DNA from: an uncultured Oscillatoriales cyanobacterium
GTDB lineage: Bacteria > Cyanobacteriota > Cyanobacteriia > Cyanobacteriales > Microcoleaceae
Direction: 5' to 3'
NCBI GenBank assembly: GCA_903893625.1
Contig: CAITND010000201.1
Span: 1-40,626, forward strand
DNA: 40,626 bases
Shown here: positions 10,025 to 40,626 of the stretch, piece after piece
How positions within the stretch are numbered: the stretch's first letter is position 1
How the letters are laid out: each line of letters begins with the position of its first letter
Translations under genes and position numbers: made by a program
The notes under the pieces: generated by a model
Seen by the model: only the letters and a program-made list of their open reading frames with translations
Told to the model about the DNA's origin: nothing
The model's database searches: none

Positions 10025-11488
10025 TTATTTCTTCTCCTCCCCTGACTCCCCTGCCTCCCCTGCCTCCCCTTCCTCCCCTACTCCCCCTGCTTTCCCTGTG
10101 AACCAATAGGTTCGCATTTCGCCTTTGCCTTTGATTAAAATCATACCGCGTTCTTCAAATAAATAGCTATCTTTGAGTTTTTGATAGGTGGTTTGACTGA
10201 CTTGAATTTGTCCTGATAAACCCTGAGATTCCATCCGAGAAGCAATATTAACCGCATCTCCCCATAAATCATAACTGAATTTTTTTAATCCGATCACTCC
10301 GGCAACAACTGGCCCTGTATTCATCCCCATTCTAAGGTTTAATAATTGATTATCTTGTTGACGAAATTGTTGAATAATAGATTGCATTTCTAATGCCATA
10401 TCTGCGATCGCCTCTGCATGGTCAGGTCTGGGTATTGGAATACCTCCAACAACCATATAAGCATCACCAATGGTTTTAATTTTCTCTAATTGGTATTTAT
10501 CCGCAAGCCGATCAAATTCTGAAAAAATTTCGTTCAAAAAAGTTACAATTTGTGTGGGAGAACGACGAGAAGCGAGTCCGGTAAAATCCGTTAAGTCTGC
10601 AAATAAAATCGTTGTTTCTTCAAATCGATCCGCAATACAACCTTGATTTTGTTTGAGTTTTTCAGCGATCGTAAAGGGTAAAATATTGAGTAATAATTGC
10701 TCAGATTTATCTTTTTCTAACCGCAGATCCGCTTCGGCTCGATTTCGTTCCAGGGTGGCTTGATAAATTTGATCAAACAGGGTTTTAAAGGTGTCAATTA
10801 CATCACCCAGTTCATCATTTCTTTTAATTAATTGGGAATAAAATTTTGGTGTAGGCTGGTTATTAATAATAGCTTTCCCCGCTTCAATTAAATCTAATCG
10901 CAGATTTAGAATCGGAAGAATAACGGTTTTTCCCAAAATAAATAAAGTCGTTGAAGTGACAAAAATAGAAATAATTAAAACTAAACCCGCAATTCTTAAA
11001 ATATAAGCATAAATATCAGCATTGATGCTTTTAGCATCATGACGAATAATTACCAGATATTTATTTTTGATCAAAACCGTATTACAAGCCACATCATAGC
11101 GATCGCCCTGATTTTGACGCAAATATAAGGTTTTTCCTTGTATTGCTTGTGAAAAACTTAGAGCGGGAGCCTCACCAAATTGACCAATTAACTTTCCTGT
11201 TAGACTATAAACGGCTCCTCCTAGAATTTCAGGATTCAAATGATGTAAATGACTTAATTGTTGTAAGAGTTCAGCATCGGAATTATAAGGATAAGTTTCA
11301 ATTATCCAGGCGATTTTACTAGAAGATATTGTAGGTAATTGTTGTAAAAGTTCGTTTTGACGTTGATAAACTGAAGGAATTAAAATCATAATTTCAACAA
11401 AAATTAAGCTTGAAAATACCCAGATTGCAATTGATCGAGAAAGACGAGCATTCAAAAGTTTAAAAAATAATTTCAGTTGTTTTAACAT
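10025..11488 (-). CDS. Membrane-bound class III adenylate cyclase with HAMP
   Basis: 487 residues. A first membrane segment near 18-38 and a second near 164-190 bracket an extracytoplasmic sensor region; a HAMP-like linker follows, then the cyclase domain from about 275. Catalytic residues are visible: metal-binding Asp in 'ILFADLTDFT' and in 'IGDAYMVV', substrate-selecting Lys in 'EKIKTIGD' and Asp in 'YDLWGD', and the transition-state Asn and Arg in 'AVNIASRME'. Lys plus Asp predicts ATP as substrate and cAMP as product. GAGGAG about ten bases before ATG supports the start. The last twenty or so residues after 'YWFTGK' are Gly/Glu/Ala and are coded by the G-rich repeat of the window ends, an unusual repeat-derived tail. 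The signal sensed is unknown. Confidence 0.9.
   Translation of the reverse strand: MLKQLKLFFKLLNARLSRSIAIWVFSSLIFVEIMILIPSVYQRQNELLQQLPTISSSKIAWIIETYPYNSDAELLQQLSHLHHLNPEILGGAVYSLTGKLIGQFGEAPALSFSQAIQGKTLYLRQNQGDRYDVACNTVLIKNKYLVIIRHDAKSINADIYAYILRIAGLVLIISIFVTSTTLFILGKTVILPILNLRLDLIEAGKAIINNQPTPKFYSQLIKRNDELGDVIDTFKTLFDQIYQATLERNRAEADLRLEKDKSEQLLLNILPFTIAEKLKQNQGCIADRFEETTILFADLTDFTGLASRRSPTQIVTFLNEIFSEFDRLADKYQLEKIKTIGDAYMVVGGIPIPRPDHAEAIADMALEMQSIIQQFRQQDNQLLNLRMGMNTGPVVAGVIGLKKFSYDLWGDAVNIASRMESQGLSGQIQVSQTTYQKLKDSYLFEERGMILIKGKGEMRTYWFTGKAGGVGEEGEAGEAGESGEEKK
10034..10093 (-). repeat. G-rich repeat forming the cyclase C-terminal codons
   Basis: On the minus strand the units GGGGAGGCA, GGGGAGTCA and GGGGAAGG are read in the frame Gly-Glu-Ala-Gly as the last residues of the cyclase. 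They are the same repeat and the same translated frame as at 1-73. Confidence 0.85.
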
Positions 11489-15271: not shown

Positions 15272-18088
15272 ATGTTAAAGCTGATCGCTGATCCTCATAC
15301 TGTTATAATGACAAATACACTAACTAATATTAACACCTTTATTGACTACGCCCGAACTTTGAAAGGTGACGAAAAAGGGGAGGCGCAAGTATTTTGCGAT
15401 CGCCTATTTCAAGCATTCAGTCATCAAGGTTATAAAGAAGCCGGAGCAGTGCTAGAATATCGGGTAAAAGCTAAAGGAAAAACCACGAAATTTGCTGATT
15501 TATTGTGGCGACCTCGATTATTATTAGAAATGAAAAAACGAGGGGAAAAACTGGAAAAACACTATCAGCAATCTTTTGAATATTGGTTAGAATTAGTGCC
15601 ACAACGTCCTAAATATGTGGTGCTTTGTAATTTCGATGAATTTTGGATTTATGATTTTGATCTTCAGCTTAGGGAACCTGTAGATCGGGTGAGTTTGGAA
15701 GAATTACCTGATCGCTTTACTGCCTTTAACTTTCTGTTTCGTGAAAATAAAAAGCCTTTATTTAATAATAATAAAATTGATGTGACTCGAAATGCCGCGA
15801 ATAAAGTGGCTCAAGTTTTTAATCGCTTAGTAGAGCGAGGCGAAACAGTAGAAACGTCTCAACGGTTTATTCTTCAGTGTGTAGTAGCTTTGTTTGCGGA
15901 AGATATTGATTTACTTCCGAGAGGTTTATTCACTGAATTCTTAACGAATTGCCAAACAAATCGATTTAGTTCTTATGATTTGATTGGGGGTTTATTTCGA
16001 CAAATGGGAAGCTATCGCCCTGCTCCTCAAGATAGTCACTATCACAATGTACCCTATTTTAATGGGGGAATTTTCTCAACTATTGAACCCATACACCTCA
16101 CCAGAAGCGAAATTGACTTATTATTAGAAGCAGCAACAGAACGCTGGTCAAAAGTGGAACCTGCAATTTTTGGCGGGTTATTTGAGTCTAGTATGGGTAA
16201 AGAAGAACGTCATGCTTTAGGTGCTCACTACACCAGCGAAGCCGATATTCAAAAAGTAGTTTTACCGACGATTATCCGCCCTTGGCGAGAACGAATTGAA
16301 GCCGCAAATACTCTAAAAGACTTGCTGGCACTGCGACAAGAATTAATTAATTTTAAAGTTCTTGATCCTGCTTGTGGGAGTGGTAATTTTCTCTATGTTG
16401 CTTATCGGGAACTGAAGCGACTAGAAGCCCAATTACTAACTAAGATTCATGAAAATTTTACTCGTGCTGCTAATACGATTGGTACGATGTCGTTAGTAAA
16501 AACTAGCCAGTTTTACGGTATTGATATTAAACCCTTTGCGGTGGAATTAGCTAAAGTAACCTTAATGTTGGCTAAAAAATTAGCCCTGGATGAAGAAAAT
16601 CAGTCCCTTAATGTGGTGCAGATGAACTTAGCATTAGACATGGATCAGGCGCTACCTCTTGATAATTTAGATCAAAATATTCGCTGTGATGATGCTTTAT
16701 TTTGTGATTGGGAACCAGTTAATGTAGTAGTTGGCAATCCTCCATTTTTGGGTGGTAAGCATATTCGTTTAGTTTTGGGTGATCAATATGTTGATCGCAT
16801 TTTTGCGAAATTTCCTGATGTAAAAGATGTGGATTTTTGCACTTATTGGTTTCGCCTTACCCATAATCATTTGGGTGAAAATTGCCGTGCTGGTTTAGTA
16901 GCAACTAATTCTATTTCTCAGGGAAAAAGTCGTAAAGTTTCCCTAGATTATATTACTCAAAATGGTGGCAGTATTTATGATGTTATCTCTACACAACCTT
17001 GGTCTGGTGAAGCCAATGTACATATCAGTATTATTAATTGGCTAAAAACTTCTGAGAATCAAGAATTAACTTACCGGATAGATCATAAAATTGTCTCAAA
17101 CATTAATTCTTCTTTAAAAGCCGAGGTTGATGTTTCTCAAGCCGTGCGACTGAAGGCAAATCTTAACTTGTGTTTTCAAGGTGTGATTCCTAACGGTAAG
17201 GGATTTTTTGTAACAGAAAGAGAAGTACAACAATGGATTAAAACCGATCCAATAAATCAAACAGTTCTCAAACTCTTTTCTATGGGAGCAAACTTAGCGA
17301 AAAATCCTCACGGTCAACCTGATAGATGGATTATTGATTTTAATGATCTAAGTTTAGAAGATGCTAGTGAGTATGAACTGCCTTTCAATCATGTTAAAAA
17401 GAATGTGAAACCAGAACGAGATACTAATAGAGACAGTAGGGCTAAACAACTTTGGTGGACTTTCCACAGAACTCGTGGCGAAATGCGAAAATCTCTGGCA
17501 ATTTTAACTTATTGTTTTGCTGTTCCCAGAGTATCAAAATGGTCAATTTTTATTCCATTTCCATCGAAATGGTTAGCAGGTGATAAATCAGTTGTTGTGG
17601 CTTCTGATGATTTTTATGTTTTTGGTATCCTAACTTCTAGCACTCATCGCCTTTGGATGCACGCACAAAAATCCACACTTGGAGAGACAACTTGCTACAC
17701 TCATAATACCTGTTTTGAAACCTTTCCTTTTCCCCAAAATTGCCCCGAAAAAATAAAAACTGAAATTCGAGTAGCAATGCAGGCTATCCATGATTATCGC
17801 ACTGAACAAATGGAGCGCAAACAGTGGGGAATTACCCAATTATATAACCAGTTTTTTAATGAATCTGCTAGTCAACTTGCTAAACTCCACGCTCAATTAG
17901 ATCAACTTGTTTATAAAGCCTACGGCATCAAAGCCAACGATGATCCCTTAAAGTTTCTATTAGAATTAAATTTTGAAGTCGCAAATCGGGAATCTCAAGG
18001 TTTATCTGTTGTCGCTCCTGGTTTGCCACCTATTGTTAAAAATGCTCAGGAATTTATTACAGAAGATTGTGTTAGAATGCCAGAATAA
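15272..18088 (+). CDS. MmeI-like type IIL restriction-modification enzyme
   Basis: 938 residues, close to MmeI (about 919). The nuclease motif D76-x9-E86-x-K88 ('FADLLWRPRLLLEMKK') has exactly the spacing of the MmeI family. A helical spacer follows, then the N6-adenine gamma-class methyltransferase core: motif I 'LDPACGSGNFLY' near 364 and motif IV NPPF near 488. A target-recognition region lies about 600-820 and a helical C-terminus after it. Type IIL enzymes recognise asymmetric sites, methylate one strand and cut about 20 bases away, all in one polypeptide, so no separate endonuclease is needed. GAGGA about seven bases before ATG 15272 supports that start; ATG 15308 ('MTNTLTNI') is closer to where homologues usually begin. 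All key residues look intact. The downstream small ORF starts 21 bases on and is probably co-transcribed. Confidence 0.9.
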   Translation: MLKLIADPHTVIMTNTLTNINTFIDYARTLKGDEKGEAQVFCDRLFQAFSHQGYKEAGAVLEYRVKAKGKTTKFADLLWRPRLLLEMKKRGEKLEKHYQQSFEYWLELVPQRPKYVVLCNFDEFWIYDFDLQLREPVDRVSLEELPDRFTAFNFLFRENKKPLFNNNKIDVTRNAANKVAQVFNRLVERGETVETSQRFILQCVVALFAEDIDLLPRGLFTEFLTNCQTNRFSSYDLIGGLFRQMGSYRPAPQDSHYHNVPYFNGGIFSTIEPIHLTRSEIDLLLEAATERWSKVEPAIFGGLFESSMGKEERHALGAHYTSEADIQKVVLPTIIRPWRERIEAANTLKDLLALRQELINFKVLDPACGSGNFLYVAYRELKRLEAQLLTKIHENFTRAANTIGTMSLVKTSQFYGIDIKPFAVELAKVTLMLAKKLALDEENQSLNVVQMNLALDMDQALPLDNLDQNIRCDDALFCDWEPVNVVVGNPPFLGGKHIRLVLGDQYVDRIFAKFPDVKDVDFCTYWFRLTHNHLGENCRAGLVATNSISQGKSRKVSLDYITQNGGSIYDVISTQPWSGEANVHISIINWLKTSENQELTYRIDHKIVSNINSSLKAEVDVSQAVRLKANLNLCFQGVIPNGKGFFVTEREVQQWIKTDPINQTVLKLFSMGANLAKNPHGQPDRWIIDFNDLSLEDASEYELPFNHVKKNVKPERDTNRDSRAKQLWWTFHRTRGEMRKSLAILTYCFAVPRVSKWSIFIPFPSKWLAGDKSVVVASDDFYVFGILTSSTHRLWMHAQKSTLGETTCYTHNTCFETFPFPQNCPEKIKTEIRVAMQAIHDYRTEQMERKQWGITQLYNQFFNESASQLAKLHAQLDQLVYKAYGIKANDDPLKFLLELNFEVANRESQGLSVVAPGLPPIVKNAQEFITEDCVRMPE

Positions 18089-20935: not shown

Positions 20936-20960
20936 TTCGGGTTTTGGTTGACTGAAAATC

Positions 20961-20991
20961 AGTTATCAGTTATCAGTTATCAGTTATCAGT
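20961..20991. repeat. Tandem heptamer AGTTATC, about 4.4 copies
   Basis: Perfect tandem copies of AGTTATC lie between the coiled-coil/TPR gene start and the TspO-like gene stop. Short heptamer tandems of this kind are typical of cyanobacterial gaps and vary in copy number between strains. Confidence 0.9.
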
Positions 20992-35331: not shown

Positions 35332-37833
35332 TTAGTGCAGCCATTCGGGTACTGCTTCTTCTTTTGTATTCGTATGACGTTCAGGAGTTTCACGCACAAA
35401 CTTGAGGTGAACAGAACGGGTTTGTTCTCCATCCGCAGCAACGGCGAAAATCGGGAAGTCGAGTAAACCGTCTTGGAAGGACATCTGTAACCGGAATGTA
35501 CCATCGGGGTTAAGTTTGATGGGACGTCCGCCAATGGTTAAGTTAGCATCGGGTTCGGTCGCACCATAGATAATTAGTTCAGCATCAGCCACTAACCAGA
35601 ACTCACGAGGACGTACAGGTGGCATTGAGGCGCCCATGCCAATACCGGACATTCCCATACCAGACATTGTATAGCCTAACCCCGCACCGGACTGAGTGTA
35701 ACCAACACCGGACTGAGTATAACCAACACCAGATTGAGTATAGCCAACACCAGACATGGTTTGTCCGACACCGGACTGAGTGTAACCAACACCGGACTGA
35801 GTATAGCCAACACCGGACATGGTTTGTCCGACACCAGACTGGGTGTAACCAACACCGGACTGAGTGTAACCAACACCAGACTGGGTGTAACCAACACCAG
35901 ACTGAGTGTAACCAACACCAGACTGAGTGTAACCAACACCGGACTGAGTGTAACCAACACCAGACTGAGTGTAACCAACACCAGACTGAGTGTAACCAAC
36001 GCCAGACTGAGTATAGCCAACACCAGACATGGTTTGTCCGACACCGGACTGAGTGTAACCAACGCCAGATTGAGTATAGCCAAAACCAGACATGGTTTGT
36101 CCAACACCGGACTGAGTGTAACCAACGCCAGACTGAGTGTAACCAACACCGGACTGGGTATAACCCATACCCACACCGGACATTCCCACACCGGACAGGG
36201 TTTGTCCAATACCGACACCGGACATAATTTGTCCAACACCAGACTGAGTATAACCAACACCGGACTGAGTATAACCAACACCGGACTGGGTATAACCCAT
36301 ACCGACACCGGACATTCCTACACCAGACATGGTTTGACCAATACCGACACCGGACATAATTTGTCCAACACCAGACTGGGTGTAACCCACACCGGACTGG
36401 GTATAACCTATACCGACACCGGACATTCCTACACCAGACAGGGTTTGACCGATACCGATACCAACACCAGACATTCCCACACCGGAAGTGGTGTAACCTA
36501 ATCCCACACCGGACATGATTTCACCAATACCAATACCGGACATTCCGATACCAGAAGTGGTGTAACCGATACCCATACCGACACCGGACATTCCTACACC
36601 CGACATCGTTTGACCAATACCGACACCAGACATAATTTGTCCAACACCAGACTGGGTGTAACCCACACCGGACTGGGTATAACCTATACCGACACCGGAC
36701 ATACCAACACCAGACAGGGTTTGACCGATACCGACACCAGACATAATTTGTCCGACACCGGACAGGGTTTGACCAATACCGGACTGGGTGTAACCCATAC
36801 CGACACCGGACATTCCTACACCAGACAGGGTTTGACCGATACCGATACCGACACCGGACATAATTTGACCAATACCTGCACCGGACATGATTTGTCCCAC
36901 ACCGGACATTCCCACGCCGGAGAAGCTTTGAGTGATGCCGACACCGGACATGGTTTCGCCAACGACCGACGCCCACATTCCCACGCCGGAGGGGAAGATA
37001 AAGGAACTCACTGTCTCTTGGGGTTTGACCACTTGGTGCATGGAACCAAACAGAGAACCTGCGATACGTTTGGCTTCTGCTTCCTTGGATAACCCAAATA
37101 GATCGTCGCGAACTCCTGCAAGGACATAAGTTTTGCTGGGGACGGGGAATTCATAGAAGGTTTTCCCCTGTAATTCTTCTTCCCAGGAAACCGTAATAAA
37201 TTGATCATCAATCCATTCTGCGGGATAAACTGGAGGAATCCGAGTCGCCGCAGAACGGGCTAATCCTAACCAACGGCCATCAACACAGCGATAACCAATT
37301 TCAACTACATAATCGCGGTCACTCACTGGAACTGGTAAATACCACTCCCGCGCCAATTCATCACAGGGATATTCTTGAATACTGTGGGGACTTTGATACT
37401 CTAAATCAATATCAGTGACATCACAGATTCGCAGGGCCAGTTGTTGCCCGCCTTGACGCCGAAACATTTCTTTCTGTTCGTTAGAAACGTCCCAGTAAGC
37501 ATAGGCCCATTCGGGATCTCTGGGCATCATCACGATCTGGCTTTCACCATATCCGACGGGTAAATCGGCTAAACCCTCATCCACAGAGGATAAGGAATCA
37601 CTGATCTGATAGTTTTGACCGACTAGGGAAAACTTTGCGACTTCCACTTCTTCTTGTGCCTCCAATGCGCGTGATGGATTAGGGGTTCCAAACTTCTGAC
37701 TGTCGATTTCCTGAATAGCTTCTAAAAGCTGAGATTTACGCATCCGGCTATAGCGAGAAATGCCATATTCACTTGCTACCCTGCGGAGTTGCCGCAAGGT
37801 CATATCTTCTAAAAGTGGACGTTCCTTTGGCAT
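35332..37833 (-). CDS. Rho_N/DUF4912 protein with long SGVGYTQ-type repeat array
   Basis: 833 residues. Residues about 10-45 ('MTLRQLRRVASEYGISRYSR') form a Rho_N/SAP-like helical module that can bind nucleic acid. The DUF4912 domain follows near 90-240 ('MMPRDPEWAYAYWDVSNEQK'). Residues about 281-736 are almost only Gly, Ser, Val, Met, Ile, Tyr, Thr and Gln: units SGVGYTQ, SGVGQTM, SGVGIGQTL and SGVGM. Nine perfect YTQ units lie in one run coded by 21-base repeats. The C-terminal 97 residues ('EFWLVADAELIIYGATEPDA') are a second DUF4912-type beta domain. Antisense frames across the array are open only because of the repeat. The gene follows ftn2 on the same strand after that gene's terminator, so it probably has its own promoter. 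Function unknown. Confidence 0.85.
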   Translation of the reverse strand: MPKERPLLEDMTLRQLRRVASEYGISRYSRMRKSQLLEAIQEIDSQKFGTPNPSRALEAQEEVEVAKFSLVGQNYQISDSLSSVDEGLADLPVGYGESQIVMMPRDPEWAYAYWDVSNEQKEMFRRQGGQQLALRICDVTDIDLEYQSPHSIQEYPCDELAREWYLPVPVSDRDYVVEIGYRCVDGRWLGLARSAATRIPPVYPAEWIDDQFITVSWEEELQGKTFYEFPVPSKTYVLAGVRDDLFGLSKEAEAKRIAGSLFGSMHQVVKPQETVSSFIFPSGVGMWASVVGETMSGVGITQSFSGVGMSGVGQIMSGAGIGQIMSGVGIGIGQTLSGVGMSGVGMGYTQSGIGQTLSGVGQIMSGVGIGQTLSGVGMSGVGIGYTQSGVGYTQSGVGQIMSGVGIGQTMSGVGMSGVGMGIGYTTSGIGMSGIGIGEIMSGVGLGYTTSGVGMSGVGIGIGQTLSGVGMSGVGIGYTQSGVGYTQSGVGQIMSGVGIGQTMSGVGMSGVGMGYTQSGVGYTQSGVGYTQSGVGQIMSGVGIGQTLSGVGMSGVGMGYTQSGVGYTQSGVGYTQSGVGQTMSGFGYTQSGVGYTQSGVGQTMSGVGYTQSGVGYTQSGVGYTQSGVGYTQSGVGYTQSGVGYTQSGVGYTQSGVGYTQSGVGYTQSGVGQTMSGVGYTQSGVGYTQSGVGQTMSGVGYTQSGVGYTQSGVGYTQSGAGLGYTMSGMGMSGIGMGASMPPVRPREFWLVADAELIIYGATEPDANLTIGGRPIKLNPDGTFRLQMSFQDGLLDFPIFAVAADGEQTRSVHLKFVRETPERHTNTKEEAVPEWLH
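35630..36965 (-). repeat. Tandem 21-base repeat coding SGVGYTQ units
   Basis: The right end (N-terminal) has mixed units of 5, 7, 9 and 11 codons; the left end (C-terminal) is mostly perfect 7-codon units, including nine in a row at about 35840-36028. Third-base variants (CTGAGTG / CTGGGTG) alternate, so copies are not all freshly duplicated. Copy number probably varies between strains. Confidence 0.9.
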
Positions 37834-38100: not shown

Positions 38101-40428
38101 TTAAGGAATGACTTGCCAATCTTCTATCCGCCATTCGCCATCCTTGCGAATAAAGCGATATTGGAGTTGTAAAGAGTCATCTTTACTGTTTTGGACTTGA
38201 CCCTGGCTATAGGATTTGACCTCTTCCTGAACATCCGCATAGGCTACAGCTTGATTGGGATTAGCTTGATCCATCTGTACCTCAGTGACTTTGAGGCTGT
38301 GTTTATAGGTGCGATGGGAACCGTCTTGTTTCATCGTTTCTGCCAGCCCTACCCAACGAGCTAGAGCCGGATCAACTAAAATTTGCCGTAGGGCTTCGAC
38401 TTGATGATCTGGCCCCATCGCTGCGGATTTCGCCGATAACCATTGATTGAGTTTGGCTTCAGCCACTTCCGGCGTAATTTTCTCTGGCTCTGCGGTCACG
38501 GGTTTGGGTTCAGGAATAGCCAACGGAGGCTGGTTTAACTGCACCATTGCCTGTTCCCCTTTCAACGTTGGCCCAGACCATCCCAAAACATTAGCTAAGG
38601 CTCCAAAGGTTCGGGAAAGTAAAAACCACAGTATCCAAACCCCGATTAATCCCCCAACACCGAGAATAATCAACCGACCCCATTTACCAGCCTCATGTTT
38701 CCGTTGAATGCGACGGAGACTACTGCTATTGGCAGGGGGAGAAGCGTTTGTCTGTGCGGAAGTCGGGGGGATATTAGCCGAAGGTGTGGGTTCAGCCGCA
38801 GGAGGTCGAGTTTCCCCAGATGAAGCGGGACTGCGACGGGAAGATTCAGGACTTTTACGGCTTCCTTGTAACGAGGTTGAGGCAGAACCAGTTTCCACAG
38901 AAGTCCGAACACTCGGAGGTGGGGGGGAGGACGGTATCGGGGTGACTGATTCTTTAATCCCAGAACCCGATACATCTGGATTCTGGGCGGTCAGTGTAAG
39001 CGAGGGAGGTTCTGAGGGGGTTTTAGTCAGTTGAATATTCGTGGCCGTTGAACTGGATTTTGGGGCTGGGGACTTGGAGGAGGAAGTTGGGGTTGTGGCA
39101 GGACGGCGAGGCTGAACAACGACCCACTCATTGGAAGCGTTGCCCGTTTCATTGGGCAGGGCTTCCAGATAAGCTTGGACATGGGGATCGGCGAAATAAT
39201 CTTTCAAGGAAACCGACTTATCGAGCAAATCCCGAAAATGGGGAAACACCTCATCTTGTAACCAACTTTCGGCGTAGAGACATAATCCAGGTAACAAATC
39301 CGGGGAATTTTGGGAATTTTCTCGGATAAAAGCAATGGGTTCCCGTTCCTGACTTAATTCTAAGGAACGACTGGCTTCTTCGGTTTGCCCTAACAATAAG
39401 GCACAAACCGCCTTTTCTAAATGCACATCTTGACGCCGCCCCAACTGCATCAGCATTAATTTGGCTTTGCGAATTAGGGCGGGTTGAGCTTCGGCAAATC
39501 CTTGAGCAATTAGGGCATAAACCGCTAAATAGGTAGCAACGGCAGAGGGACGACGAGCTTCGGCTTCAAACAACGCTTGTTGTTCAGTGGTGGTTATGTA
39601 GCGACGGAGTTGCTGCACAAATCGCAGAAAGTCCTCGACGCCTAAACCAGATTGATCCTCCCCTTGACCATCAATGCCGCCCCGTTCATGAAGCATTTCC
39701 CGCAGGAGTTGCAAGCCTTTACGACGTTCTGCGGCTTTTTCTAGGGGAAGTTGGAGTAATTCTAAAATCCGATAGGGACGGAGTTTGTAGAGATCCGTTT
39801 GCATTTCACCTCTCAAACTGGCAAACAAGCTTTCTCTTAATAATAGATTTTGTCCCGCTTCTAAGGAAGAGGCGGCGTTTTCATATTGTCCTTGTTGCCA
39901 CTGCTCTCGACCCAGTTCTAAATAGGCTGAGGTAACGGTCAAAATAATATCAGGAACTATCAGAGCCGGATCACCAAAACGGCCATCTTTTAGACCAATA
40001 CTGCCATTACTGAGATAGGGTTGGCATAATTTCACCACCATTTCATATTCCCCTAATTCATGGAGCAGTAATAATGCCCCCACAAATTGTTTATCCTCGA
40101 TCTCAATACTCGGTGTATGAGAGTCGATGACCGCTTCTAAAGCAGCGGCTTCGCTGCTGGCACGTTTGCCAAAAGCGGGAGTTTTGACTTCTGATTCGGG
40201 TTCGTAGGTTTTGGCCAGAAACCCCATATCATAAGCTTGACGTTGATCGGCATCCGATAGAACTGCATACGCCTCATCAATCAATTGCTTGCGTGCGGTG
40301 ATCGCCAAATCAGAATACTCCCGTCTAGGAAGTTGCAAAGTGCGATCGCGGTGCGCTTGCTTGAGTTGTTCTGGAGTTGCTTGAATCGGTAAGCCTAATA
40401 TTCGGTAATAATCGAGTGGAATACGCAC
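38101..40428 (-). CDS. ftn2: Cell-division protein Ftn2/ZipN (ARC6 homologue)
   Basis: About 775 residues. An N-terminal J-like domain ('[20 protein letters not shown]', '[16 protein letters not shown]') lacks the HPD motif of true DnaJ, as in ARC6/Ftn2. Long helical repeats follow to about 400, then a Pro/Ser/Thr-rich linker, one membrane segment near 590-612 ('[20 protein letters not shown]') and a C-terminal IMS domain ('[20 protein letters not shown]', ending '[11 protein letters not shown]'). It tethers FtsZ to the membrane and organises the division ring. GTG 40428 gives the usual '[14 protein letters not shown]' start; a TTG at 40443 would add five residues. A TAATAT at about 40463-40468 on the minus strand is a possible -10. 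The G-rich repeat begins about 20 bases further upstream. Confidence 0.9.
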
Positions 40429-40488
40429 GAGCCACTTCCCCAACGGTGAGAAACTGATGTAGCTATATTAGCAGGGAATGGCGGAATG

Positions 40489-40626
40489 GGGAGAAGAGGG
40501 GTAGGGGGAGAAAGGAGCAGGGGGAGAAGAGGAGCAGGGGGAGAAGAGGAGCAGGGGGAGCAGGGGGAGCAGGGGGAGCAGGGGGAGCAGGGGGAGCAGG
40601 GGGAGCAGGGGGAGCAGGGGGAGCAG
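40489..40626 (+). repeat. G-rich tandem repeat, unit AGCAGGGGG, running off the window
   Basis: Mixed GGGGAGAAGAGG units lead into about eight perfect 9-base AGCAGGGGG copies (about 40550-40626) that continue past the edge. It is the same family as 1-73 and 10034-10093. Runs of five G every nine bases could form G-quadruplexes (inference). It lies just upstream of the ftn2-like promoter region. Confidence 0.95.

Follow-up and report, generated by a model that had tools for sequence, protein, structure and literature searches.

The transcription terminator Rho consists of a Rho_N domain followed by an RNA-binding domain and an ATPase domain. In cyanobacteria, Rho_N also precedes DUF4912, in a protein whose ordinary form has about 410–420 aa and a linker of ~100 residues with about four SG; this short form is the commonest among the matches listed. 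Of 386 genomes drawn from the phylum, 201 contain a DUF4912 match: 184 of these share the class or a nearer rank (a count that includes the own genome) and 17 share the phylum. At the family level, 56 of 61 genomes match. The genomes without a match comprise two at the order level or nearer and 18 at the phylum level among those listed, and 165 further ones. Among the papers listed in literature searches, none gave an experiment on this protein or a function for it; DUF4912 is named in a table of a cotton transcriptome study (PMC7713314).

The window, i.e. the whole stretch of 40,626 nucleotides that was analysed, encodes a lengthened member of this family (Table 1). The initial annotation had described an open reading frame with Rho_N, DUF4912 and then a 455-residue array, and this description was confirmed: the coordinates are exact, the product has 833 aa, and both domains exceed the Pfam gathering scores (DUF4912, PF16258, 145.8 bits against 29.4; Rho_N, PF07498). 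A conserved Ig-like domain after the array had been overlooked; PF09136 (glucodextranase domain B-like Ig fold) is its candidate family and is absent from the Pfam list at E 0.001. At that threshold, Pfam found no domain besides Rho_N and DUF4912 in the 833-aa protein, and an identity with Rho itself was therefore rejected. Foldseek returned no match at E 0.001 or better, and no viral copies of the gene were confirmed in one scan. The gene is probably a lineage-expanded form of a widespread protein with the order Rho_N, DUF4912 beta-sandwich, flexible linker and Ig-like domain. Ordinary-length proteins, such as those of Planktothricoides (L070) and Fischerella (L036), have the same four-part order, match the window protein at 72–73% of aligned positions and carry a common SGVGMWA...SGVGxS seed, whereas their linkers have 96–98 aa with 4 SG and that of the window protein has 515 aa with 61 SG.

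Table 1. Features of the array gene and of the gene next to it (positions in the window).
Feature	Position	Strand	Basis
Whole gene: Rho_N, DUF4912, repeat array and Ig-like domain, 833 aa	35332..37833	(-)	ORF, Pfam
Rho_N helical domain, residues 8–40	37714..37812	(-)	Pfam, E 1.3e-11
DUF4912, residues 95–210, predicted beta-sandwich, weak fn3-like matches	37204..37551	(-)	Pfam, E 8.4e-43
Conserved linker seed SGVGMW, residues 282–287	36973..36990	(-)	SGxGxW in 116/134 pooled linkers
455-residue low-complexity stretch, residues 282–736, bounds of the initial annotation	35626..36990	(-)	Unit count
59 tandem units (5/7/9/11 residues), residues 296–728	35650..36948	(-)	Unit count, DNA-level arrays
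C-terminal Ig-like domain, residues about 745–813	35395..35601	(-)	
ftn2/zipN (ARC6-type) gene, directly upstream	38101..40443	(-)	Pfam ARC6, Arm_PDR, ARC6-like_IMS, DnaJ

Upstream DNA extends to at least 4.9 kb at 64 loci, and at 28 of them ftn2 lies upstream on the same strand. It is not so placed at the other 36 and was not accepted as an established partner; its proximity is a weak hint at a role in division. In Anabaena, zipN is followed after 165 bp by all2706, whose transcription is reported to appear independent (PMC6391411). Other observations in the window include an MmeI-type restriction-modification protein (15272–18088, Pfam) and short tandem repeats of 9 bp, rich in purines on one of the strands, at the two window ends (1–72 and 40488–40626) and once inside (10036–10098). 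The heptamer ATCAGTT is present in 4.9 perfect copies at 20958–20991, which we take to resemble the cyanobacterial STRR repeats. Five more open reading frames (151–255 aa), found in other frames on both strands between 35619 and 37092, overlap the array and are by-products of the repeat.

The first unit, SGVGMWASVVGETM, has 14 residues; its length is even, and it lies outside the regular array. The 59 units that follow (10 of 5, 32 of 7, 14 of 9 and 3 of 11 residues) are all odd and comprise 19 distinct types. The formula first proposed for them, SGVG-(xG)n-xxx, holds as SGxG(xG)n-xxx for 48 of the 59, while 10 are bare SGxGx pentamers with no xxx tail; the remaining unit reads SGVGITQSF. Glycine makes up 31% of the array, followed by S (14%), V (12%), T (10%), Q (10%), M (7%) and Y (6.6%). 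Only two of the 455 residues are D, E, K, R or H, whereas such residues make up 28% of the protein outside the array; D, E, K and R together amount to 0.7–7.1% in 14 further arrays measured. At the DNA level, Tandem Repeats Finder reported arrays with periods of 21, 27 and longer, and a search of the organism's own genome matched the array at its own place only.

The four closest loci, three from Planktothrix and one from an Oscillatoriales MAG, are 91–93% identical over the N-terminal 228 residues, which places the window in Planktothrix or very close to it. Among 33 aligned short homologues, the invariant linker residues include S283, S284, S289, G292, W294, A295, S310, G311 and G313 (L070 numbering), and the short-form linkers conserve the motifs SGxGxW, SSYxxPSG and SGVGM. 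SGxGxW occurs in 116 of the 134 linkers pooled, truncated and paralogous rows among them, and each of the 10 rows seen from the small-genome family f25 has it (nine in the pool, plus L142). The array was thus built from old, conserved material. A second DUF4912 protein in the same genome (L002, G000:C266:12612–12956) has an N-terminal hydrophobic stretch and, ahead of DUF4912, its own repeats of another kind (around PDIPIKSPIVEP). Long proteins with many tandem DUF4912 matches are found at G431:C79, G387:C10 and G422:C301, the last a 2292-aa frame with at least ten.

The initial annotation held that unit lengths are always odd. This is true of the 59 units after the even opener and of all 453 counted units (58 types) in nine Planktothrix arrays, one of which ends at a contig end and one of which was counted only up to a frame change; copies within one array are not independent, and the 453 of 453 carries no probability. 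A wider count took in 44 arrays from 11 groups and gave odd lengths for 1359 of its 1398 SG units, with units of <4 or >12 residues and units with W excluded (W was allowed in L124), sequences cut after masked letters and L005 cut after its frame change. The loci with six or more SG units left out of this count are L001 (cut from the window's own place), L015, L025 (counted in the SSY/GS-type set), L083, L089, L094, L097, L099, L102, L107, L148 and L149. By group, the odd units number 133 of 135 in Arthrospira, 79 of 79 in Lyngbya, 370 of 371 in Okeania and kin, 153 of 163 in Microcoleus and kin, 33 of 35 in L051, 12 of 15 in L077, 55 of 56 in L124, 35 of 35 in L132 and 20 of 20 in L133. Seven of the ten even units of Microcoleus have ten residues and were read as two pentamers minus one glycine. 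Arrays of the SSY/GS type in five genes have 338 odd units out of 346, excluding units of >16 residues and masked letters. The rule is broken in L128, with octamers and 20 of 36 units even (three of the 20 precede the regular array) and 16 odd, and in L170, with 8 of 15 units even (6-, 8- and 10-mers) and 7 odd. An odd-unit rule was thus rejected as a family-wide trait; it is strict within the Planktothrix arrays seen, common elsewhere and fails in two lineages.

The related claim that length changes by dipeptides was supported. In Planktothrix, the tails YTQ, YTT, QTM and QTL recur at 7, 9 and 11 residues and QIM at 7 and 9; as one tail recurs at lengths two apart, the step of two is shown directly. 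Hexamer slippage was not singled out as the source of these steps, since 20 successive xG hexamer pairs are no more alike than randomly paired xG hexamers. Recombination between heads and tails could generate such length sets from few events. The further claim, that odd lengths keep side-chain parity along a beta strand, was incorrect: side chains alternate at each residue along an extended strand, so that an odd unit inverts parity and puts the next serine on the opposite face, and the regular feature is the step of two. Dipeptide steps would hold register only within a strand that ends in a turn. The odd regularity may result from seeds of odd length (5 and 7 residues) that grow and shrink by dipeptides, rather than from a rule of beta folding.

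Long SG-type arrays are found in Planktothrix, Arthrospira, Lyngbya, Okeania, Pantanalinema and several further genomes; the expanded lineages are presumably mostly filamentous genera. Three unit types occupy the same linker position: SGVG, in 11 groups and L170; SSYxV, in Phormidium (L048), Argonema (L066), Microseira (L082) and Oscillatoria (L025 and L027); and GS-Q, in L025 and L133 beside their other units. On a quick tree built from 105 conserved cores (linker excluded, L128 and L170 outside it), the expanded state changes eight times; this tree leaves 44 of its 102 inner branches without support and does not distinguish gain from loss. Removal of seven truncated or near-threshold rows leaves four changes, or seven if SG, SSY and short are treated as three states; the starred branches of the 105-core tree alone force four changes with the SG label and two with the SSY label. 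The number of origins is uncertain because of the unsupported branches and the gain/loss ambiguity of these counts, and the differing unit types argue better than the tree for separate growth.

The arrays could be neutral products of slippage in a linker that tolerates length, growing and shrinking with no function beyond harmlessness. This explanation is rather unlikely, and survives best among the alternatives. It would account for the many short homologues, the array lengths that differ among close species and the unit types that differ between lineages. It also fits the frame shifts in or near the arrays of L005 (5001–7946), L033, L110 and L097, in which the Ig-like domain is lost and the frame stays open; these may reflect assembly error or frame switching driven by the repeats. 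However, pN/pS between equal-length units (Nei-Gojobori) is 0.06–0.66 and thus below 1 in 21 of 21 comparisons from nine genes, even if sorting the units by SG start and length alone lowers pN somewhat and recombination among copies can add likeness. The units retain their protein sequence while synonymous sites differ, which shows constraint at the protein level. Moreover, the seed itself is conserved, and seven of nine Planktothrix genes seen carry a long array in frame to the Ig-like domain; of the other two, one ends at a contig end and one changes frame.

The initial annotation likened the array to silk-like or beta-solenoid folds, suggested a condensate or scaffold protein or an intracellular surface-like fibre, and proposed structure prediction and a survey of strains as checks. 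This interpretation was partly supported. The counted Planktothrix units are all odd, L128 and L170 have many even ones, and prediction gave no confident fold. An AlphaFold2 model from 36 sequences has a mean pLDDT of 41.6 and a pTM of 0.28, with Rho_N reaching 90 and the array near 30 without secondary structure, and a model of a 265-residue block alone has a mean pLDDT of 29 and short strands scattered along it. AlphaFold2 performs poorly with repeats and with assembled states; the low pLDDT means that no fold was predicted with confidence and does not prove that an assembled array is disordered. A silk or beta-solenoid fold found no support in the two models, which lack confident strands and come from a method blind to assembled states. 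More broadly, a beta structure (silk-like sheet, amyloid-like fibre or beta-solenoid), with SGVG(xG)n as a short strand and xTx as a turn, is distinctly unlikely. Glycine does alternate with hydrophobic residues, dipeptide steps would keep register within a strand, the block model contains its few strands, and phmmer matched the array to a chain of the BpaC autotransporter (E 1.2e-7, probably compositional). These points are countered by the pLDDT of about 30 in both models, by the even-length units of L128 and L170, and by the sister arrays SSYxV and GSGQMVT, which lack alternating glycine. The stretching of one linker with different repeats in different lineages points to a flexible sticky scaffold rather than a folded fibre.

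An entropic spacer between DUF4912 and the Ig-like domain, in which length matters and sequence does not, would suit the three unit types at one position and the low charge of all 14 further arrays measured, but is very unlikely, as the upkeep of unit sequence within lineages exceeds what a spacer needs.

The preferred explanation, with a probability of roughly 0.5, is that a cytoplasmic scaffold carries the array as a disordered, multivalent and weakly self-associating arm. What was observed is a conserved anatomy, multiplied linker motifs, low charge and the lack of a confident fold; we infer self-association, nucleic-acid binding and a part in a cell process. Array copies would arise through slippage and unequal recombination, and would link copies of the protein through weak contacts. 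The end domains may bring cargo, nucleic acid via Rho_N and a partner via the Ig-like domain, such that linked copies and cargo could assemble into a cytoplasmic scaffold or, judging from sequence, a condensate. Array length, which varies in Planktothrix (open frames of 677–915 aa in the seven genes that are complete with the C-terminal domain), would tune the strength of association. The many relatives without an array are a point against this arm-and-scaffold explanation. It is unlikely that the linker motifs of an old and widespread protein were multiplied independently in several lineages, into arrays hundreds of residues long, to give a natural series of multivalent scaffolds with tunable strength and differing unit chemistry, a cyanobacterial counterpart of prion-like or FG-type domains on a Rho_N/DUF4912 platform. 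The same linker with different repeats and many unexpanded relatives provides a natural experiment on the contribution of the array, by swap or deletion. The locus also carries a caution, in that unit-length parity does not reveal the fold.

Among known systems, the heptads of the RNA polymerase II CTD resemble the array in being many and short (phmmer E 4.6e-6 to 2.8e-5); the phmmer matches in the PDB to RPB1 and BpaC were taken as compositional. Silk repeats are even in length and secreted. Fibroin-type GAGAGS/GVGAGY sequences share with the array the alternation of glycine with small or hydrophobic residues and the scarcity of charges, whereas the array has odd units, xTx interruptions, Rho_N from residue 8 and no confident predicted fold. 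FUS/hnRNP-type low-complexity domains combine a nearly charge-free arm rich in G, S, Y, Q and T with a nucleic-acid-binding-type module, as here. In contrast to these domains, the array is built of strict short units, and the arrays of Lyngbya and two Okeania lack tyrosine; the likeness is one of composition.
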